A DNA stretch of 64,000 bases from Halichondria panicea (Eukaryota > Porifera > Demospongiae > Suberitida > Halichondriidae), in the NCBI RefSeq assembly GCF_963675165.1, contig NC_087386.1, forward strand, positions 3,664,169 through 3,728,168. The letters run 5' to 3'. Positions 17,608-61,767 of this stretch are shown here, piece after piece. Position 1 is the stretch's first letter; each line of letters begins with the position of its first letter. The notes under the pieces were generated by a model. The model made no database searches. It worked only from the letters and a program-made list of their open reading frames with translations, and was not told the DNA's origin. The position numbers and the translations under genes are program-made.

Positions 17608-18265
17608 ACGTGTATGCAATGATGAATATGTTGATGAATACAATGATGAAGAGCATGAACAGGGCGAACGTAAAAATAATGATAGAGCGGAAAACGACTG
17701 AGCGTTATAGAGACGGCAGTCAGTCGTACAGGAGCAGCTAAGACAACACAGTAGAGACAGAGTAGAGACAGAGCATGAGGCAGCCCTACGAGAGAGAGAC
17801 TGAACCGACGGAGTTAGCCAAGCAGTTATGGAAGATAAATTGCCATCAACTGAGCACAGGAACTGAATGCCCTGAATGCCCAGATATTCACCCTCCAAGA
17901 AATTACAGAGAGCGGCGTTCTCTGACGAGAGGCGACCCTTGCCGATTGCCAGTAGAACGGAAAGACGACCCCGTCCCAGATCACAGTAGACCCAGATACC
18001 AGATTGACTCTGGATACTCGTAGCCCAGTTAATACGGGTAAAAGGAGGGGCAGGGCTCCACCAATAGACGGCGAGGATACAGAAATAAGGTTCCAGGATT
18101 GGCTACCTGCATTGATCCGGACATCGAAATGGAATCAATGGAATCAATGGACCACTGAAGAAGAGTTGGCAGGACATCTCCGTGGACGTGCCCTACACGA
18201 GTGGGAGCTGATGGAGGAGTGTGATTGTGTTAGGGCTAGTGACATATTGTGTACTCGATTAGACC
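17608..18265 (+). pseudogene. gypsy A gag, first part
   Basis: Charged, coiled-coil-like region (frames disrupted, 17610-17900), then a frame at 18004-18265 with RAPPIDGEDTEIRFQDWLP and AGHLRGRALHEWEL, typical of Ty3 gag capsid. A 9-bp in-frame duplication gives WNQWNQW near 18131. The gene is cut at 18265 by the 5.86-kb transposon and resumes at 24126. Confidence 0.75.
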
Positions 18266-18586
18266 CAGAGGAGGTTGGACACGATCACGCGAGCTAGTTT
18301 TTCTGCTGACTCAGCACTGTTTTGTAGGGCAAAACCAATGTACATTTCAAAGAGGTATATCTCATCTAACTAGTAAAAAAATCACTGTTTTTTGTGTTTT
18401 CCTATTCAAGTAAGTAGTCTTGCTGTCAGTAGCCACCCGATCCCTGCCGATCCCCGCTCATTGGTGACAGTGCAGTGAGTTTTATAGTTTTATGTGCCAG
18501 CTAGCTATCATGAGTACTTTTTAAATTATACAGCATGTAATATTATTCTAATCTATCAACAGGAACAGAAGTACCTGGTACCCAAT

Positions 18587-21500
18587 ATGGCCAACTTTTC
18601 AGATACTGTTGAGCAGTTGTGTGAGGGTGTTAACGCTCTAATGGTCACTCCACCACCCACCCCTGTGCCTACAACACCCCCTGCTAGACGTCGGAAGCAA
18701 AGTGTTACCCAACTTTCTCAAAGCCCTTCTTCTCGCCCAAGATTAAGACAGGGTATAAGAGACCAAATAATTGGTAAGAAGTTGTTTGGAAAGCATACGA
18801 AGAATCAACCACCTGTTTGGTCGAAAGAAGAAGAATCAAGGCTGATAGAATTTATGCTAATCTTTACGGAAGGCAAATCGTGGGTGATGCACAAGTACAC
18901 CCCATTTTGGAATGAGGCTGGGAAGCATATTCAGCGATGTCTGAAAACGTTTCACCGTCGATCAGGTACATAAGGTTTTAGGTATTGTGGTTGCTAGATA
19001 ACTTTGACATTATGTGTCATTCGGGCAAGAATGTTTGTTTGGATCGTGTATTTGTAATTATGACAATGTACTTACATTCTATAGGGAATGCCTGCCGTAA
19101 AAGGGTTATCAACTTGTCATCGAAATTTGAATCTCCCCTGCAAGCCGACCAGAGCTGTAACAGTGAAGAAGCGATTGTCACTTTTGAAGATAAGTCTTCT
19201 TCCTCAGCAAGTCATTCTATGCCCGTTTCTCCTAAGTCCAGTGATCCTTTGGTTGTTATCGGAAAATGCAAAGAAAACTTGAGGTCACTTAAACAAACAG
19301 AACAACTAGAAGCTCTGTCACAATTGTTTAGTGATTTTGGCCAGGTAGTCATTCCACCTGACTTCCTAGAGCTAACTCGTAATGCAGTGTGTAACCTTAA
19401 GGAAGAAGGTAGAGCTAACCTTGTTTATAAGCTTGCCAGATGCCTTGGCACAAAGCGTGAAGATGGTAGTGACACATTGCTCCCGGTTAAAAGAATGCCA
19501 ACCGGTTTGATTGAGTATATTGTCAGCTTTTTTAATGCGGAAAATCTTCAAAAGGTATGTCTTAACCATTCAAATGTAACTGTGTAATTATCTTGTTCTT
19601 TAAATATAGGTACAATGTCCTGCTGACTACAGACTTTGGCAACAAACGTTGTTCGGAATGAAGTGGGTAAAGATACATGCTGGACCCATGTGGAGTGAGG
19701 ACACAGTTTCCCAAGGAAGTACCCTGGGTCATAGCAAAGCTCAGAACCCTACGAAGGTATTAATTGAATATCACATCACATAATTATTTAATGGTTATAA
19801 AGGTTCCTGTGCTATAATTTTGTTTGCACTGTCAGGCGAGAGTCAACATACCTGGTCTGTCTGATAGAACCCTAAGGAGAGATATAGTATCAAGTGGCTA
19901 TACCATGGGATCTGAAATTCAGGTAGCATATTTTCTAAATTTTGTGTTTCCAATTATGTTTAACCCTACAATAGGCCAATGCACTTGACCAAGCTGCTGC
20001 AATGTTCCCAACTGACACCCAATGGTGGATCAAAGGGGATGCAGTCGATATAGTCCCGGGACTAAGTGACTCCGTTAGAGGTGAATGGTCTGGTGATGTA
20101 GACCTAAATGACGGCAAGCTGCAACTGATGTTTTCTGAGTACCAAGAACGCTTGGACAAGATCAAACACTTTGGCATGGGTACCAAAACGGAAATTGAAG
20201 CTGGAATCGTTCATGAGAATCATAAAATGGAAGACACTCTTGCCTTTCTTACTGCAAGTAAGTCAACATGTATTTTAAGCATACCGTTAGGTCCATCCCT
20301 GTAACATAGTGCCTTATTCTGATGTGTTTATGCTGTAATTATCCTTCAGAACTAGTGGAAGCCAATGCTGACTATGAAAACAAGCTGAAAAATGCTAAAA
20401 AATTGGATAAGACTATGTTTGAAGCTGCCTGGAAAGTAGAAGAATTGGATCGTGTGTGTATAGGGTGTCGTTCTATACGCACAGAGCTAACTGTTGTGCT
20501 TGATGGATTGCGTGAGTCAGAATCTACCGTCCAGCAACTGAATATCCCCCGTCGCCTTACTGCCATTAGACAAAGGTTGTCTGCTATCGTAAAGGCGTTG
20601 TATCGATGGAAACGAACAGCTGCATCTCATGTGTTTGTGTTCATGATATCATCTGAGCTGCGAAACAAAAAGCCGTATGCATTGCCTGTTCAATGTGTTC
20701 CATGTGTCGGTCTGAAAGAAAATGATATCAGACAGCTTACAAACAAGCTTATAGCCGAGATTGTGAAGCGCAAGATGGAAGTTGTAGGTACATGTTGTTT
20801 AACCATACATCTACATGTACATGCACATGCATAATTATGTTGATTGATTGCTAGCTGTATTCTGTGTTGCTGACCGTGCATCCTTTCCTCAGGGTCAGTG
20901 TCAAATGGGGAGTTTAACTACATGAGATACAAGGGCTACACACGTCCCTTGAGTGTTTTCAAGATCAGGGCAGATGTACGCTCTAGATACTCTCGGATGT
21001 CTGAACATGCTGCACTACCATAATTATACACTTACCATGTGTTTCTTACATGTATGTTGTTATGAGTCCTGCATGTGAAATTAAATAGTAGGAGTGCATG
21101 TTGAAAAAAACAACACTGGAAATTGTGTATTCATGACTGTCTTGCATATTATTTATAAGTTTCGACGTTGTTATTGTTAGGGTTCCCTGATGGTACTGTT
21201 CATGCAAAACGTGACAACCCTGCTGTTTCAGTAATGCTTCTAAATGAAATTTGGAACTGGAAACAATTGGGTGCTTCTACAGAGGATGTGATTTCTCGGC
21301 TGCGCCCAAGAACTGTCCCTAGTGGCTACACGTTTAACACATGGATATCTGGTACGTTTTATGTAACAAAATAAAACTACTGATGACTGAAATGGTTCCC
21401 CAACTACTTTGATCAGTTATTATTCTTACTACAGGGAAATCAGAGAGTATGCCAGATATGTTAAGATCGATCCTGTCTCAACTTCAGTATACCTATCTCG

Positions 21501-22802
21501 TACACAAATGGGATAGAGAAGGCATTCCGTTCAAACAACATGTCTATGTGCCTGAAGTACACCCTCTAACTGGTAAAACCTATCATGAGAGGGAAGACGA
21601 AGACGAACCTCATGTCTTAAAGGTACATTGTACATGTACGGACATGTACATGTTTTAGGTCACTTAGCATTGGGGTTAGAGTTTGCATATAAGTAATGCT
21701 TAGCAGTTTAATTGTAAAATTTGCTGTGGTGTAAGACTGCATGTATACTTTGCTCCTACATAGTATTTTATTATGTACACATATATTCTGTTCCCTACAG
21801 AGAATGGCAACAAGTACCAGAGAGGGAGGCCCTGATAATGTACATGTAGAGAGGTATGTCGAAGCTTTGTCTTGTCCTTCAGCAAGGTTGACATATTCTG
21901 CTCTGTCTGGTGCACGGAAACAATCGGTGCAAGATGCAGAAAGAATGTTCAGTGTGGACATGGTTGAATTCATGAAGGACAAAGGGTATGATATCGAGGC
22001 AACCTATATCTCTGCCATTGGTAATTGGCGTCGATCATGTGACGAGCGTGGTTTATCCCAACTACAAAGGTGTCGGTACAATCATCAACTCTTGATGTTT
22101 GTCATGGATGACCTGATGCCGTGGCACAAGACTGACTATGATCTTAGTGTAATGGAGGTCAATAGGTCAGTAACTTTAGTGAATATACATGTATCTTCCA
22201 AGGAAAATAAATATGCCTGAAAGTATCCGTTGGCCTTAACTTTGCATTTAAGTTGATGCATTACACAATTTATATGCAGAAACGTTTCCAATGTCTGTGG
22301 CTTCACACGGCAAACGTTGATAGCTGTGACGACTAACATTGAAAGTAGAGAGAAGAGGAGGATGGATAATTTACAGATGGGTATACCCCCAGAGCACCCC
22401 AGAGCAAGCACGTCTGATGATGTAGAATGTTTTTTTAGCGTCATGCGAGACAACCTGGGGAAAAACTTTACGCTCAAAGAAGTCAAGTACAATTTTAGGA
22501 AAGTCTGTATGGAATTTGAGAAAAGAATCAATCCAGACCTCCCTTACTTTTATCATACCTCATATCATACCAGGTTTGCTGAGGGTGAGCTTCCCTCATT
22601 TGACAAACCATCGACAAGGGAAAAACGAGTGCAACGAGTCCCTCAAAGAGAGCAAACTGCTTCTTTTGTACCTGGGCGAGCAACTCTCCCAGTAAGAGGC
22701 TCTCTTTCTATTCGACCTCAGTTCCATAACAAGCCGCTTGACCTTCCTCCTCCTCTAAGTGCCCCAGTCCACATTTGCGAACACTCTTATTCTCAACTCT
22801 AG
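18587..22802 (+). CDS. large unfamiliar transposon protein, SANT/Myb-like N-terminus
   Basis: Eleven exons by eye: 18587-18965, 19085-19554, 19610-19756, 19836-19922, 19975-20257, 20350-20787, 20893-about 20985, 21181-21351, 21435-21622, 21801-22165, 22280-22802. Junctions have GT and AG, and the phases agree except at the exon 7 donor, which is uncertain. About 1050 residues. Exon 1 has a Pro/Thr-rich linker, a basic stretch, and a SANT/Myb-like motif (VWSKEEESRLIEFML ... FWNEAGKHIQ), which would suit DNA binding. The middle contains WWIKGDAVDIVPGLSDSVRG and WSGDVDLNDG; exon 6 has CIGCRSIR and a helical stretch; exon 11 has HPRASTSDDVECFFSVM. I recall similar multicopy unnamed proteins in cnidarians, unverified. 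Acidic residues in exons 5 and 11 could belong to a nuclease site; that is inference. The start could lie upstream of the acceptor near 18561. Confidence 0.8.
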
Positions 22803-23073
22803 CTGGTGAACTGCAATTAGTGTGCAAACAGTTATGTAATTAACTCGTTGTGTCATTGTCTTATAATTATTGTGTAAACTTTTGATGTTCCCTTTGAGTC
22901 TGAAATTAGACTGAATTTGTCAAATGAATTTAATTGATGGTTGATGATTGATGATTAATGAATCAGGTTGGTACATAATTATAATTATGACTGAATGATA
23001 CAATAAATATTGGCACGCATGACAGGCCGTGATACAACACAACAAGATATAAAAGAGTTATAAGCACGTAAAT
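22803..23073. other. intergenic spacer between the convergent transposon genes
   Basis: AT-rich, with a ttgatgattgatgatta repeat; no coding sequence. It should hold both 3' ends. Confidence 0.6.
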
Positions 23074-24050
23074 TCATCTTGTACTAGCGCACTGAACAAC
23101 AGGAAGGGCCCACTGCCCTCTAATCGTAATATCGATTCCAGCATAATATCCCGGACCACTACGCCATGCCACACGGTACTTAACCCATGAAAACTGAACA
23201 TTTTCAATAACATTTCTGATGATTGCAGAGTGGACATCCTCCAATGCTTCACGCACCACATAACCTATGGTGAGCCACTCTTCTTTCAGCTTGCAGCGAA
23301 AAGCAATTGCCCTTGCATCATATGGATTAGTGGATTCACAAAATATATTTACAGGTGTCTCTGTCCCATTCTTGAGCAAGTCAGCGACTTGTTTCAGAGC
23401 ATCTTGATAATCAACAGAGCGGGTAGCACCAATGCACTTGAACGTGACAGTGTGAGATGCCGAGAGAGACAGTTGTGAAGAAGATGTGTCATCAGATGGA
23501 TCAGATGGAATATTTTCTTCGTCATCACAATTTTCCTCAACGTTGGCACCAAAACATTTCCATTGTTTCAAAATCAATCCATTCCCACTCCCACAATATA
23601 CAGACACCAACAGATGGCAGATGCAAACCGTTAGTGCACACACAGGCAGCAAAGATGGCAGGCTGCAAATAATAATGGATTACCACTTAATACTATGTTA
23701 CGTAAGTGTATAGACATGATTTTGGTACCTGCACTGCAAATGTAGTTTTAGGATTGAGAGTCGATGGGTAGCTTCGACACAGCCCTGCATCACAGCGAAC
23801 AAAGGCATCAAAACACTCCATCTCCATCTCACTTTCAAGACCATTGTTTGCTACCTCCACCTCCACTTTAATCTGTCTCAACTCGATTGCCATGATCTCA
23901 AAATTGGGTATGTTGTACATAAACGGTTTGCCAATGGACAGTATAATCCATAACTCCTCTTCCCTTTGAGAAAACCACTGAGAATCCAAAAGTACCCCAA
24001 AGTACCCCTGGCATTGAGCAAGGACTGAAGGAGCTAGAGGCCATTGTTTA
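23074..24050 (-). CDS. HIRAN-domain protein of the 5.86-kb transposon
   Basis: Exons on the minus strand: about 24050-23730 and about 23670-23074, separated by a short intron that begins gtacc and ends tttgcag. The downstream exon contains HTVTFKCIGATRSVDYQDAL, VNIFCESTNPYDARAIAFRC and WLTIGYVVREAL, the layout of a HIRAN domain (a beta barrel found in HLTF/Rad5-type remodellers, binding DNA ends or replication-fork structures), with the conserved NPYDARAI core. An acidic serine-rich linker precedes it. The upstream exon is rich in ELRQIKVEVEVANN and unassigned. No in-frame ATG was found at the 5' end, and the phase across the intron is one base off, so the model is incomplete. Convergent with the large gene and inside the transposon ends. 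Confidence 0.7.
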
Positions 24051-24125
24051 GCTGAGAAGAATGAAAGAATGTAATTAAGGTCACATGTCTTATGATAATT
24101 AATGACGCGCGTCCAACCTCCTCTG

Positions 24126-24510
24126 GATTAGATCCTAGTCATAAGATCATGGCAGTCCAAGATTTTAGGCACACCATGCAGGGGGAGGCTGAGTGTGTGT
24201 CTGATTTTATCAGGCGAGCATTTAGAATCGCCTACAATGAGACAAGAGAGCTATGGTCAGTTACAAGAAAGAGGGCATGACATCCCCTGCAGTTTCAGGT
24301 GCATTGTATGGCAGCCAGGAATGAAGAAAAAAGAAAAGCTGAACTGAGAAAACGGAAATCCCACACCGGCCTAACACCTCGTGAGCAAGCACCGAGGAAG
24401 GACTTGAGCAAACGAATGCAGATCCCAACGATCCCAACAACCAGTCGTATGCTAAAAACTGCAAGCAATCGAAAAGCGAGAGAAAAGTCACTAACCGCCA
24501 AGTAATGCCA
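24126..24510 (+). pseudogene. gypsy A gag, second part
   Basis: Continues the gag frame after the 5.86-kb insertion: HKIMAVQDFRHTMQGEAE, SDFIRRAFRIAYN, then after frame loss CMAARNEEKRKAELRKRK, a basic tail. It includes a 10-bp duplication near 24401. Confidence 0.75.
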
Positions 24511-28548: not shown

Positions 28549-31479
28549 CATAGATATAAGGGATAGGGATGGGAAATGGGAAACGCTACGTAAATAGCAT
28601 TGACATCCGTCAATGTTTTCTTCTTTATTTCCTCCAACCTATGCAGCAACTGAGCTCCATGTATTAGCAATGACTAGTGGAACAGTCACAACAAGGTAGC
28701 AGCAATAGTTAGTGAGACCCTCCAAGCAGTAAAAAGCAGCTTGGACAGGCAAATTCTTGAGAGCTGTACCGTTGAGTATTCCAGTACAGAATTATGGAAA
28801 TGTATTACTGTGCCGATACGATGAACCAACTATCAATGAATACAAAGAGACTACATTCAATCATTGATCTAAATGGGTACACAAAAAGTCTGCTTTTAAA
28901 AACCAGCTTACTAAGAACATTACTTACGCCCGCTACTTAATATTATATTTTGGGCTGTAGTCACAGCCTCTCCTTGTAAAAGGTACACAAAGCCACTAGA
29001 TAGACGATAATACAACACTCAAAAAACTGCCTTTGAAAGTTTTCAGGCTAGATACACAACACTAGGTGTGGATGCTCAGCTGTGAATGATAGTAATAACA
29101 TTTCCCGCTAGGTTGGCGGGGTGTCTAGAGCCGAAACGCGGATCAACCTTTTGGCATTACACAGAAGCATAGATAGTGGAGGAAGGGGATTGGCAACTCA
29201 CTCACGTGAGCTTATGTTGAGCTTATGTTTGCAATGTAGCTGAGCCAGAGCTGAGCAGCACATCCGCTATTCGCCTGGGTATTGCGCGGGAGGTTTTACC
29301 ATCACACAAAACAGACTTGCCTCTCTTGAAGTAGAGGTCAACAGCATTCATAACTGTACATACCACACCAACACCAACAGTAAAGTAGGCATCATATGGA
29401 AACGCATCATATGGAAACCACTGGAAAAAACAAAAGCGTGGTTTATTTCAGTGTTTTGTCTCGTTTTTTGTCTTTTGTACCTTTTGTAATCTTCTGGATA
29501 GCTAAAGAATGATACAGATATTTGCTGCACTATTAGAAGCATTGTATAAAGCAATACTTTGTTATGTATTATGCTTATAAAATATTTAATGAGATTGTTT
29601 AGTGGAATTAGATATCCCCATTGTTCTCCCTCTGTCAACAGTTCCTTAACAGCTCAAACACTTTTTCTTTGAGTCTATGATACTATATGTATCGTAATGA
29701 GCTGTCTAGACGATGTTTGTACTGTTGTTTGTTTCATTACTAATTATTGCAGCAATGTCTCGAAAAGGCTGCTTTCAGCTAGCATAGGAAAGCACAAGCA
29801 CACCTGAAGAGTCGAAGGGAACAGCCTAAACGTGTAGATACAAGTAATATTCAGTTGCCGGCCAAAAGACGACTAAGAAGGCAGTTTATTATAAAATAGA
29901 GACAAGTGATGAAGCCTCTGTTGAACCAGCTATTATTACCCCATTAATGATAATGGAACATGGACCCTACATGTGTACAAGAGAGAAGTTACAAAATGTG
30001 ATGAACTAAAGCAGTTTCCAGCTTCCCTTACTCAAGCTCATATTGGACCGTATGACGCTGTGTGTGCTGGTCATCCAGATGAGGATTTTGTGATCATGAT
30101 ACAATCAAAGAAGGGAAAAATAATTTCACGTACCGGTGATGTCACTTCATATTTAGATGAAAATCCTGTGGAATTCTGTGGGAAAAAATATCCCAAAACT
30201 ATTCGAAGTGCTGATTGTAGTGCTATCGCAGCTGGGCGATGTGGTGCCTGTGTGAAGTATAGAGCTAATCTCCGTTCTATATATAAACAATGGAAGAAAT
30301 CGTGTACAACTAGTCCCAGTAGTCATTGCAATGAAAGATACCCAGAAAAGAAGGACAAAATGTCGAAGCTACGTTCCCAAGTTAATGCCTTGGTCTTAAG
30401 ATTACAAGAGAAAGTTGCAACGCTAATTGAGTCTAGAGGAGAGCCGGTTGATGATGATTTGCATACTGATCTATGTTCAATTATGCAAGAAAATAACGAT
30501 AAAATATGCGCAGATTTTCCTGAAGGAAGCTTCCAATGGTTGTTATGGAATGAGCAGAAAAAGGCTGCCTCTGTCTGTAAAGAATGGTACAGAATGAGGT
30601 GGCATCCATTAATGATTAAGTGGTGCGTAAACCTGAAACTTATTTCTTCGAGTGCTTACAATGCCTTGCGCACAAGTGGTTTCTTGAAACTCCCATCTGA
30701 AAGAACTCTTCGAGACTACTCAGACAAACAATTGCTTGATGAAGTAAACGCAAAATCTTTGCCACCTTCAAGAAAATTTGTTGGTTTAATTCTTGATGAA
30801 ATGAAGCTTAAAGAAGGTATTGTGTACAACAAGACGAGTGGCAGTGTTATTGGTTTCACAAGCATTGGTGATATTAACGATGATCTACTGAAGCTTGAGA
30901 GAGAAGGAGAGTCTTGGTACTAATGGTACCACGTACCATGTTTAAACCGTACGCTCATTTTGGGACTGAAGGTATTACGGCAGACTTGCTCTACTTTTGG
31001 GAAGCCGTTAGAAGGTTAGAAGTTAATGGAATCAAAGTAATACATGTGACTGCCGACGGTGCAAGTCCAAACAGGAAGTTTTTTAGAATGCAATGCTACC
31101 TACATCCATAAGGCCTGGAACCCTTACTTTGCCGACCCACCACACTTGATGAAGACGGTTAGAAATTGCTGGTCACATTCAGGATTTCAGGGTACTCGAC
31201 TAATGAAGGTAAGAAAAAATGATTTGATCTATTTTGTGTACATGCTGTGTAATTTATAGATATCTGGAAAATTCATCAAATGGAGGCATCTCATTAATCT
31301 CTATAACAAAGTTTCAAGTACCGCTTCCACTTCAAAAGGCTTATCTCTACTTCCCAAACTAAAGCTAGAGCTTACTTCCTTTTCAAGAATGAGGGCCGCA
31401 CAAATAAGTCTACTTATTAATAATAATACTTGTAAATGTATTTGCGCAATGTTAATTAATTATCTTTGATATCAAACAC

Positions 31480-43765: not shown

Positions 43766-45487
43766 TGGATAAAATTAGCATTTTGACACAAACGGCACCC
43801 CATATTCATCAGTTCATATGTAACCATCCAAAAGATATAATCACATATACAAGAAATCCACCATTAATTAATTGAGCCATCCTTAACAACACTGAGGAGA
43901 GAGGAGGTTGGACACGCATCATCATGACGCCTTCAGTCATGTGATAATTATAAACCTTTATAGAATTCCTTTGAGGTCAAAGGTGAGAATGTAAAAGCTT
44001 ATCAGTGCAAGTAAGAGCTAGAGAACGCTAAAGAGAAATGGTGCTCTGACCTCCTCTGCTCATATAGGTCATAATCCTGTTAAACAAAAATTGAAAAAGT
44101 GTCAAAAAAATCTAAATACTAGTCTAGATCCATCTTGAAATCTTTTCAGCAGTATAGGGAGGCGGTGGGAATGCACTTCTGGCGACTTGCGGTGTCTCTG
44201 TACATGTACAGCCTACAAAACAGTGAAGCATCAAGGTGCCTAATTAGTCGGGCGCCGCCGACCTCCTTCCGGGCAAGGGGTTGGCTAAGTTCACCGTGTT
44301 TGATGCAGTTCCTGTTTGTCACTAGTTAGCCCCACCCCCTCCACATGGAGCTGGCGGGAAATGCTGTAAATTAAAACTACAGTATGGCCATGGATTGGAC
44401 AGAGGGATTACAGCAGAAGGGGAATTACTATGAGGGATGGGTTGAAGACATTGATGGCCTGCTATCCTCTCATGCAAAGGCCACGGTTACTTGCTATGGT
44501 ACACGTAGATCTTCAAACGCTTCTGGCAATGAAACAACAACTGATAAAGAAAATGTGAGCACTATACAGAAAATTAGAAAAGGGGGGTGAGGGAAGGAGA
44601 GAAAGTAATAGTATTATAAATCAGTTTGTGTTCACAATTTCAGATGACGGTCCCCAAAGTTAAACTCTTCTGGAGTCGTGGAGAGATGAAACGGGATAAC
44701 ACACCCTTCTACATTGCTGAAACTCAGCAGTTAGATTGTCAGTTCGGTCACCACTACTACAAAGAGAAAAAACACAAAAGTTCCCGAATATTAGTACAGG
44801 GTAGTAGGAAAATAGGTTGCCATGCACACATAACGATTAAGAAATGTATAGAATACCCTGAGTACAAAGTAGAGCCACAACATAAGCGTACGATTCGTGA
44901 TAAGAAAATGTCTGAGCTTAAGATAGCTCTGTCTGACGGAAACTGTGTAACAACACGTACCCTGTATTTTGTGTCACTACCAGCAGAAGAATGCCACACT
45001 CACTGGTCATCCTACAGGAGGCGGTACTGCTGGCTTATCTAAGAGAATAGATGAAAAGGTATCTGCAAAAATCACAGAATTAGTGGGTGAAGGAATTACA
45101 GACTTTTACGACACTACGTCATGAAAGATCTATGTAAAGAATGCCTCCCAGACCCCAATGACAGAGCGTACTTTCCTATCGCCAATGACCTAAAGAATCA
45201 CATTTATAATTATGGCTAAAAGAGCCCTTCAGCTTTCATGCCTCGACCAAGATGATGTACGTCAAAAGATTGAGCAATGGAAAGTCACGGATCCCGAAAG
45301 CACTCACTTTTTTCGTCTATATCATGTCAAGGATGGTGAGGAAGACAGTGATTCATGTTCACCACCATCTACAGAGGAAGTGAGGGAAGGTTACTTCAAT
45401 GGCAATGACAGTGGAGATAAGAATAAAACGATAACCGATACAGGTCAATACGAACAAAACCTACTTTGGATACATCAGAGTAAATGG

Positions 45488-46003: not shown

Positions 46004-48362
46004 AGTAAATGGCAACAACAACTCCTAGGACGATATGGCAATACAATCAGCTTGATTGATGCTACCTACAAAACCACGAAATATGATCTAGCTTTATTCT
46101 TTATCTGCGTTAAGACAAACGTTGGCTACTCTGTCGTTGCAGAGTTTGTAGTTCAAAGTGAAACGTCAGAAAATATTCGTGATGCCTTGTTAAAATTGAA
46201 AGAGTGGAACCCTACATGGTGCCCACCATATTTCATGACTGACTATTCCGAGGCAGAGCTTATGGCCCTAGAACAAGTTTTTCCAACAACTACTGTGTAC
46301 TTGTGTGACTTTCACAGGGAACAAGCATGGGGACGTTCGGTCAAGGATCACAAACATGGTTTGAGTGAATCAGAAGCAGAACAGTTACTCACTTTTCTCC
46401 GCACTTGTGCCTGGGCTCCTTCTGTTGATGGAACTGATCCTACTAGTACATATAAGTCAGCAGTGAATGATCTCAAGCAATCTGGAGTATGGAAAGATCA
46501 CATTCAAGTCAGGGAATGGTTAACGACAAAGTGGTTGAATGTAAAACAAGTAAGTATATTATACCGCATATAGCACGAAATGTTCGAGGCACTTATATTT
46601 TGTGGAATGACTGCTTACCGGACCTTTAATCTTTGTACGGTATAGTAGATAATTATAATTAAAGAACAATTTTTGTAGACTTAATTTTCGTGTAGGATTG
46701 CTAACCCATGCACACAATCTGCGAAAATTAAGCCCCTCGAAATTTCGCGCTATACAGTATACGTATGTCCATATTTATTGTAATTATGTATTAATCAATG
46801 ATGAACTACTTTGTACAGCGCTGGGCTAGAGCTTACAGGGATAACACATACTATGCTGCCATTGATACAAACAACGGGACAGAAGCACAAAACCGATTGT
46901 TCAAATATAGTTTTCTACCAAGAAAAAACCATAGAGCAACACTCTCAAGCACTCGGCATTATTGTTGACAAGTTCTTACCCACTAGGAGACAACAATACC
47001 TGCTTCAGAATTATCAACAATCTTCTTTATATCGGCCCTATCATAGTCACATTCCATCTTACCTACATTGTACACAATCGACCAAGGTCAATAATCATAC
47101 ACTGTCTGGACAGACAAACCAACAGTGCAAAAATTTCTGCTAGTCAGATACATGACATTGATATTGTGAGAGGAGTATTCGAACTGGAGAAATCATCCGG
47201 AAAGAAACATACAGTAGACTTTGCTTTTAATACCTTGGAAAAAATGACTTCCTGCACTTTTTCAGTGTATTTACACACAAACCGGCTTGGCAATGGGACA
47301 AACTTCCTCAATCCTATTTACAAAGTGCGTATCTATCAACTGATAACGAAGCACTTCATGAGTACTTCCAACCATCTGATGACAGTTTTCCCTTTTCAAT
47401 TGTGTGTAATGAAAATACTGATGAAAGTACTGATGAAAGCAATGTCATTGAGGATGCTATACCAAAACGGGTGAGATTATAAATGTATATAATCATTTAT
47501 ATATGCCCCCCTATTTTACACTTATGTATAGGTCAGAAGTGTGTCCATTAAAGCTGCTGGAGAACGAACAAGAATAACTCTTAAGTCTCTAGAATCACTG
47601 ACATACTTGTGCACGGATACAACCAGGCTTTTGGACTTAGACACTCAACTCAAAGATCTACTTCAAAAATTTAGAGCAGACTTACCTCAAGAGGAACAAC
47701 TCATTGTTCGGCCATCAATTGTCTCTCGAGCTATTGGAATAAAGAGGAAGTATGCACGGATCAAATCCAAATTATCCCGTTGCAGTAAATTGCCGAAGAC
47801 AAAGCCAAAAAGGAGAAGAAAAGCTGATAGCAAGTTTCGTAACAGAGTTGGAACTAGAGCTGACCGTTTAGGTATAATATATGTACCCTTTCATTTATTA
47901 TATACAGGAAAGACGAGATTTGATTCACACAAACAGTCAATGAACAGAGAGGAAAGCTCAAAGTAAACAAGATAACATGTGCTGTATATAATCGTATAGT
48001 TTTACGCTATTGTAGACTACCTCAGCAGACAATGACTGATTGTTCCCAGATAACCTCCAGTCAAGTAGGTAAGTCAAAAGGTGAAGTACCCAGCTGAGTA
48101 ACGGCCTTAGAGGCAATAGCATACTACTCCATAAAACATGCTAGTACGGGTTCATATGTTGCTTACCATTAAATGAAAGGTAGAGGAAGAAAAAGAAGGC
48201 GATGTGGGGACTGCCGTGCTTGTAGAGAACAGCAAGATTGTGGCACCTGCACCAACTGCAAAGACAAGCAGAAATTTGGTGGCCCTGGGAGAAAGAAACA
48301 GTGTTGTATCAAAAGAAAATGTGACGGTGAGTATACTCATTTCAAATTTATAGGCATCTATC

Positions 48363-49213: not shown

Positions 49214-49642
49214 CAGAGGAGGCTGGAACCACTTGACCTTAGCTAATTAAGGTCACTAATTGGATTTATCCAAACCTCTCTTGCAGACTACTTCAAGCCT
49301 AGTTTTTAGTGTCTATCAGTTTAAAATGTTATTTTTTAGGGGGGGTCAAATTTTGTTTTCGCCAATTTTGCTCAGAAGCAGAGATACAATCAAAAGTCTT
49401 GCTCTTGCACTAGCCTCGATATCATGAGCGGCTTGTTCTCGAGGTCACTGCATACTGGCTTGAGACTTGTATCTCTGCTTCTGAGCAAAATTGGCGAAAA
49501 TAAAATTTGACCCCCCCTGAAAAATAAGGTTTTAAACTGATAGACACTAAAAACTAGGCTTGAAGTAGTCTGCAAGAGAAGTTTGGATAAATCCAATTAG
49601 TGACCTTAATTAGCTAAGGTCAAGTGGTTCCAGCCTCCTCTG
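49214..49642. mobile_element. 429-bp foldback element with MULE-like ends
   Basis: Arms of about 190 bp, nearly identical inverted copies (cagaggaggctggaaccact ... agtggttccagcctcctctg), around a short loop near 49400-49455. Perfect 9-bp target duplication cctccgagc at 49205-49213 and 49643-49651. Shares the cagaggagg terminus with the elements at 18266 and 43899. Non-coding. Confidence 0.95.

Positions 49643-50174: not shown

Positions 50175-61767
<11,593 letters not shown>

Follow-up and report, generated by a model that had tools for sequence, protein, structure and literature searches.

The stretch of DNA analyzed here, hereinafter the window, comprises 64,000 nucleotides of the genome of the sponge Halichondria panicea (contig NC_087386.1, positions 3,664,169 to 3,728,168), and the 5,860-bp segment between its positions 18266 and 24125 is a real DNA transposon that moved as a unit, leaving a 9-bp target duplication. 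Two genes are located between CAGAGG...CCTCTG ends, an empty site was found, and relatives of the same layout are present in the genome. Most probably, it is a cut-and-paste transposon and represents a new lineage with kinship to the P superfamily: the product of the first gene is predicted to carry a diverged RNase H core of the P-element type, and the second gene, convergent to the first, encodes a HIRAN-like domain.

The boundaries of the element are exact at both coordinates. On the left and on the right it is flanked by reading frames that, judged by eye, are gag-like, and a paralogous empty site (L053), a gypsy-like copy that is 85% identical to the left flank in the window, contains GATTAGACC once, with both flanks continuous and meeting at those nine bases. 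The form of the target at the empty site suggests that the single mismatch between the two duplications in the window arose later, by a C-to-T change on the right. An earlier, sequence-only reading of the window had proposed that a segment with inverted ends and a 9-bp duplication with one mismatch had moved as a unit into a gypsy gag gene, and had called for a search for empty sites and for a count of copies with the same ends; the boundaries, the flanking frames and the gypsy-like empty paralog all bear this out. As for the count, 270 instances of the 15-bp end were found in the genome (126 forward and 144 reverse), compared to none for the reversed control.

A second, near-complete copy (G000:C15, L001), which matches the left 335 bp of the window element, has its own perfect duplication of 9 bp, GATAATGGG. 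Across 5,755 aligned bases, 26 substitutions separate this copy from the window element, along with 16 insertions or deletions (indels), and judging from this small number of substitutions, the element family is recently mobile. Short copies with the same ends were sampled from the first 100 end positions listed, 15 of them being chosen for plus/minus matches within about 1.5 kb, which is not every such pair: six possess a perfect 9-bp duplication, two a 9-bp duplication with one mismatch, and two a perfect 8-bp duplication, the remaining five being unclear. We also observed that, between the window and C15 copies, indels are many relative to substitutions; several resemble short tandem duplications, among them one of 164 bp within gene 2 of the C15 copy.

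A protein search of the genome yielded at least 78 exon-level matches. Seventeen relatives (L004-L020), a subset of those in the genome, were fetched; these are not independent, L004/L005/L011, L007/L018 and L014/L017 representing one family each (L002 and L003 are short copies with matching ends and are left out of all counts). Four of the 17 (L005, L007, L014, L015), like the C15 copy, show CAGAGG ends together with a perfect 9-bp duplication, in elements of 5.4-7.0 kb, so that this duplication is seen in the window element, with one mismatch, and in five further complete elements; the ends of these families diverge beyond CAGAGGAG. No such end pair was found inside the fetched stretch in the other 13. 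The end scan, which allowed duplications of 8-10 bp and is blind to elements without a duplication, returned nothing on six shuffled loci, and its other matches (L006, L011, L017 and inner ones) proved to be either internal or simple repeats, or else the inner portions of long inverted ends. The inverted ends of L005, L014 and L015 are long and near-perfect, about 50 to 150 bp or more, against 15 bp in the window family. Such relatives, along with the short non-autonomous copies that share its ends, uphold the original description of the segment as a mobile two-gene DNA transposon.

So what kind of enzyme could mobilize these elements? The sequence-only reading had recognized no known transposase core in the protein and had suggested looking for an RNase H-like one. 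That view has to be revised on the strength of an alignment (A1) of eight core sequences, those of the window element and of seven relatives that are 46-51% identical to it, in which the rows of the relatives are anchored to the window sequence and insertions relative to the latter are absent. Searches of viral contigs and prokaryote genomes with short peptide patterns and tblastn gave no relatives, and the alignment therefore rests on one genome. In a Pfam scan, the family TNP-like_RNaseH_N (PF21787) matches five of the eight members at E<=1, with the best E=4.8e-5, and no further transposase family matches any of the eight at that threshold. Among the pieces spanning the strand to the second catalytic position (D2), scanned for five of the eight members, those of L006, L007 and L012 score 27-29 bits, over the curated cut-off of 24.6 bits. 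The genome also holds P-like elements proper (46 PF21787 matches among the matches listed), one of which matches the P transposase of known structure, 6p5a (E=3.5e-5). Comparison of the A1 profile with a set of six P-like sequences (the 6p5a stretch and five from this genome) gave a score of 41.1 (P=5e-4) that was reached by none of 240 column shuffles (maximum 26.4); an earlier, smaller comparison had given 39.9 (P=0.0011). Of the four weaker secondary alignments, two are in the correct order, at a helix-turn-helix (HTH) motif (SDRTLRRDI) and at the D(2)H motif. For the HTH that precedes the core, a 14-column motif, no shuffle in 100 scores as high, and for D(2)H, one in 100 does so. The D and H of the latter motif are invariant in all eight aligned members (outside the alignment, the H is missing from L020, and L008 cannot be read at this place), as are the columns of the first catalytic position (D1) and of the catalytic Glu.

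Several observations weigh against this assignment. PF21787 stays below the cut-off in the window member (19.2 bits) and in L014 (15.4 bits); the E-value of the window member varies between 0.0015 and 0.064 across scans (0.057 in the eight-member scan), under the cut-off, and in its scan NPHP3_N (E=0.0029) outranks PF21787. The NPHP3_N match is taken as a chance coiled-coil likeness, and single matches such as Phage_int_SAM_4 (0.012) are also taken as chance. The other two of the four secondary profile alignments do not follow the expected order; the Glu motif is aligned in register, yet 11 of 100 shuffles score as high. Adding the D1 half to the D2 half gave no gain in Pfam score, and for this reason the D1 assignment is only putative, its placement being based on conservation and order, without a significant profile match. 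A search of PDB gave no match for the C-terminal half, and the eight-member profile retrieved only weak coiled-coil proteins. The catalytic D-D-E series in order is not found in the window protein, where D2 is Asn, as it is in seven of 11 family groups. For gene 2, the single-sequence fold of the window HIRAN domain is unusable (predicted local distance difference test score, pLDDT, 42).

Could the core then belong to an RNase H transposase superfamily of its own, linked to P by deep ancestry alone? This possibility, which differs from the P-related reading in the nearness to P and does not exclude it, deserves to be entertained but appears rather unlikely to us. The length of the duplication, the DNA-binding part, the insert in the core, the partner gene and the D2 residue all differ from those of P, the scores are modest, and the Glu motif is by itself non-significant. 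On the other side, among transposase families it was the P-type Pfam family alone that matched, at its curated cut-off in three members, and two further P features, the HTH immediately preceding D1 and the D(2)H motif, are found again here. The sequence-only reading had favored yet another affinity, with Mutator-like elements (MULEs), in which case the unrecognized catalytic protein would be a mutator-type transposase. The 9-bp duplications of the window element (one mismatch), of the five complete elements and of the sampled short copies would fit such a group, as would the long inverted ends of some relatives and the presence of MULEs in the genome (31 matches) and in the window itself, where the MULE that had been noted nearby is indeed found as a transposase domain match at 46052-46315 (+), E=1.4e-11. 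However, the MULE family PF10551 matches none of the eight members at E<=1, a profile comparison against five partial MULE proteins from this genome gave P=0.12, and the Glu region, DDVECFFS..R, by eye resembles SQDPLENYFG..R of the local P-like proteins, not NNRVESIN of the local MULEs. Given the lack of a match among these members and the result of the profile comparison, the shared 9-bp duplication is more likely a likeness of the staggered cut than a sign of descent, and we consider a MULE affinity very improbable. Finally, the window reading alone was unable to exclude that the supposed transposon was a single host gene or a set of repeats brought together by chance; the second copy with its own perfect 9-bp duplication, the empty site and the 270 occurrences of the end leave this with practically no probability, and it was rejected.

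The layout of the predicted P-type core is distinctive. An insert of roughly 110 residues, probably helical judging from the weak coiled-coil matches and its appearance, separates D1 from D2, and the D(2)H motif is placed about 150 residues past D2, rather than 36. D2 and the Glu are about 325 residues apart, and no Pfam family corresponding to the GTP-binding insertion matched the eight members at E<=1. A THAP domain was matched neither in the window protein (E<=10) nor in the N-terminal pieces of three relatives (E<=1). The SANT/Myb-like start that had been read from the sequence survives in a weakened form: Pfam recovers Myb in the window protein at E=0.003, below the cut-off, and weak Myb matches are found also in L006 and L018, with none in L015.

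The second catalytic position requires separate consideration. Its column holds Asn in seven of the 11 family groups (window/L001; L004/L005/L011; L008; L014; L015; L016; L019), Asp in three (L006/L064; L007/L018; L012), and Ile in L063; L009, L010, L013, L017 and L020 have no match over this column and are outside the 11-group count. In a small unrooted tree, the Asp forms occupy two separate branches, and a Glu two residues past D2 is present in all groups covered, save the decayed L019. Since families with Asn include complete elements with perfect 9-bp duplications (L001, L005, L014, L015), Asn at D2 would not, taken alone, mark a dead lineage, and help in trans is possible. An Asn also occurs in the catalytic triad of SETMAR, as its third residue. 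That protein is reported to work with a DDN triad (PMC8230255). An intriguing, although unlikely, possibility is that a P-derived lineage moves without the canonical second Asp, through an [N/D]-G-E motif in which the carboxylate would come from the Glu two residues on or from a deamidated Asn-Gly, the enzyme working together with a transposon-coded HIRAN protein that would handle the 3' ends.

Gene 1 can be read as eleven exons encoding about 1,055 amino acids (Table 1). Spliced alignment seeking GT-AG borders recovers nine of its ten introns, and the intron positions 283, 332, 361, 602, 698, 760 and 882 recur in relatives. Thus, the eleven exons of the sequence-only reading stand, unlike the consistent phases and freedom from lesions that it had ascribed to them: the window copy is without 32 bp present in the C15 copy, comprising the final part of exon 7 together with its splice donor, and as a consequence exon 7 reads into a stop codon and out of phase with exon 8. 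This loss probably occurred in the window copy, given that some relatives, such as L006, read through that place. The C15 copy is damaged as well, with 75 bp of exon 10 missing and frame-shifting differences in exons 1 and 2, so that neither copy is whole. Of the proposal that the element is young and might be active, the first half agrees with the few substitutions between the copies, and the second is doubtful because both genes of the window copy are broken; this copy is probably inactive.

Gene 2 is where the frame of the window copy is broken a second time: compared to C15, 11 bp are missing in the linker before the HIRAN domain. Convergent HIRAN matches downstream of gene 1 (tblastn, E<=0.01) were detected in 16 of the 17 relatives, L020 having none; the match in L019 covers 29 residues only, and L016 has weak matches nearby (E=0.003) and a better one about 2 kb further off. 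The Pfam HIRAN family is matched over the cut-off in L004 (E=1.5e-9), and below it in the window (0.0047) and in pieces of L014, L015, L018, L012 and L006 (0.00017 to 0.029). The domain and the convergent gene that the sequence-only reading had put forward are therefore real in the family, with the window copy itself showing a broken frame and a match below the cut-off. Comparison of the HIRAN part with L010 gave a nonsynonymous divergence (dN) of 0.065 and a synonymous divergence (dS) of 0.183 (122 codons, one pair), which suggests that the domain is under constraint, and the N-terminal part of the gene 2 product seems to be common to the relatives.

Table 1. Features of the transposon and of a foldback-like relative, in window coordinates
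Feature	Position	Strand	Remarks
Left target-site duplication	18257..18265	no strand	GATTAGACC; single copy at empty site L053
Left 15-bp terminal inverted repeat	18266..18280	+	CAGAGGAGGTTGGAC
Transposase exon 1	18587..18965	+	weakly Myb/SANT-like region from about 18818
Transposase exon 2	19085..19554	+	
Transposase exon 3	19610..19756	+	
Transposase exon 4	19836..19922	+	motif IPGLSDRTLRRDI, aligned to HTH region of P-like elements
Transposase exon 5	19975..20257	+	D1 region WWIKGDAVDI; putative first catalytic Asp codon 20038-20040
Transposase exon 6	20350..20787	+	insert, then strand/helix part of RNase H core
Transposase exon 7 (remnant)	20893..21023	+	Asn codon 20904-20906 at second catalytic Asp position; end and splice donor missing
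Transposase exon 8	21181..21351	+	
Transposase exon 9	21435..21622	+	D(2)H motif DEPH at 21602-21613
Transposase exon 10	21801..22165	+	
Transposase exon 11	22280..22802	+	putative catalytic Glu 22425-22427 in DDVECFFSVMR
Gene 2 exon 2	23074..23662	-	linker (frame-shifted here) and HIRAN-like domain
Gene 2 exon 1	23729..23893	-	start codon uncertain; likeness to relatives may start upstream
Right 15-bp terminal inverted repeat	24111..24125	-	reverse complement of left repeat
Right target-site duplication	24126..24134	no strand	GATTAGATC; one mismatch to left copy
Foldback-like non-autonomous relative	49214..49642		CAGAGGAGGCTGGAA ends (those of relative L005); perfect 9-bp duplication cctccgagc

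Elsewhere in the window, the foldback element with a perfect 9-bp duplication to which the sequence-only reading had drawn attention was recovered as described (Table 1). A short element at 61234-61397 has CAGAGGAGGTACGAC inverted ends and no clean 9-bp duplication, its flanks being rich in CA repeats, and a degenerate short element, one end of which is GAGAGGAGGTTGGACACGCATCATCATGACG, is located at 43899-44058. A further TNP-like_RNaseH_N match at 30747-30884 (+) (G000:C10:3694915-3695052) seemingly belongs to a P-like element proper, 6.6 kb downstream. Among such local elements, L050 and L051 are near-identical copies (99.8% over 4,674 bp) with CATAGAT ends and 7-bp duplications that read GTTTTAC and ATTTCAC, and this family is probably young. 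No Rfam match was found in the window at gathering scores. The genome also gives 10 exon-level matches to Wnt genes, in agreement with an animal host.

How might the two proteins of the P-related transposon work? The 1,055-residue protein would bind the transposon ends through its Myb/SANT-like and HTH parts, and its P-type RNase H core, if the kinship holds, would excise the DNA and perform strand transfer, the two nicks in the target being staggered by 9 bp. The P transposase is described as making 17-nucleotide staggered cuts and using guanosine triphosphate (GTP) (PMC7776569); cuts of this type would leave strands that the HIRAN protein could find at the excised ends or in the gap left at the donor site. 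HIRAN domains are reported to recognize the 3'-OH terminus of single-stranded DNA (PMC11237066) and to associate with single strands or with forks (PMC4666394). The accessory protein might accordingly bind 3'-ended single strands at either place and so, perhaps, protect them or help unload the transposase. Because the duplication is 9 bp long, THAP was not detected, and D2 is mostly not Asp, we refrain from calling this a P element; the lineage appears to be related to P and might function like it. The combination of such a transposase with a HIRAN gene was not found in titles and abstract openings of the open PMC literature and is seemingly undescribed, although such absence does not prove that the group has never been named. 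Few animal transposons have been studied as thoroughly as P elements. The lineage would illustrate the extent to which a P-type transposase can be remodeled, in its DNA-binding end, target stagger, active site and HIRAN partner, and would provide, if the scenario is true, a natural case of a fork-remodeler domain serving transposition. It also raises the questions of what sets the length of the duplication within one type of transposase and what role the HIRAN protein plays for the transposon.

Comparison with known systems puts these features into perspective. With HLTF/Rad5 the element shares the Pfam HIRAN domain; unlike in those proteins, no SNF2 or RING match was found in the gene 2 pieces scanned, and by reading the product is a small two-domain protein. 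PIF/Harbinger elements possess two genes, with one part Myb/SANT-like, and a 3-bp duplication. Here, too, there are two genes and a Myb/SANT-like part, but the latter is fused to the transposase, the second gene is a HIRAN gene, the duplication is 9 bp rather than 3 bp, and DDE_Tnp_4 does not match any of the eight members at E<=1. MULEs carry a [C/D](2)H-type motif, to which D(2)H here may be compared; the 9-bp duplication is also common to the two groups, and PF10551 and the Glu motif set them apart. The P superfamily (P element, THAP9, Galileo) offers the most points of contact: the TNP-like RNase H core, the HTH-like motif before it, the D(2)H motif of the D, D, D(2)H, E signature given for P (PMC8230255), CA...TG termini and short non-autonomous copies. 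Unlike P, the element starts with a weakly Myb/SANT-like part instead of a THAP match, contains the core insert, has Asn at D2 in most groups and comes with a second gene for a HIRAN protein. Its duplications are 9 bp, rarely 8, against the 7-8 bp expected of the superfamily, in which 8 bp are reported for P (PMC7776569) and for Pdre2, with CATACC termini (PMC10983969), and mostly 7 bp for Galileo (PMC4168063). The same difference is apparent within a single genome, where the local P-like family combines CATAGAT termini with 7-bp duplications, as read in two copies, against the 9 bp of the transposon described here.

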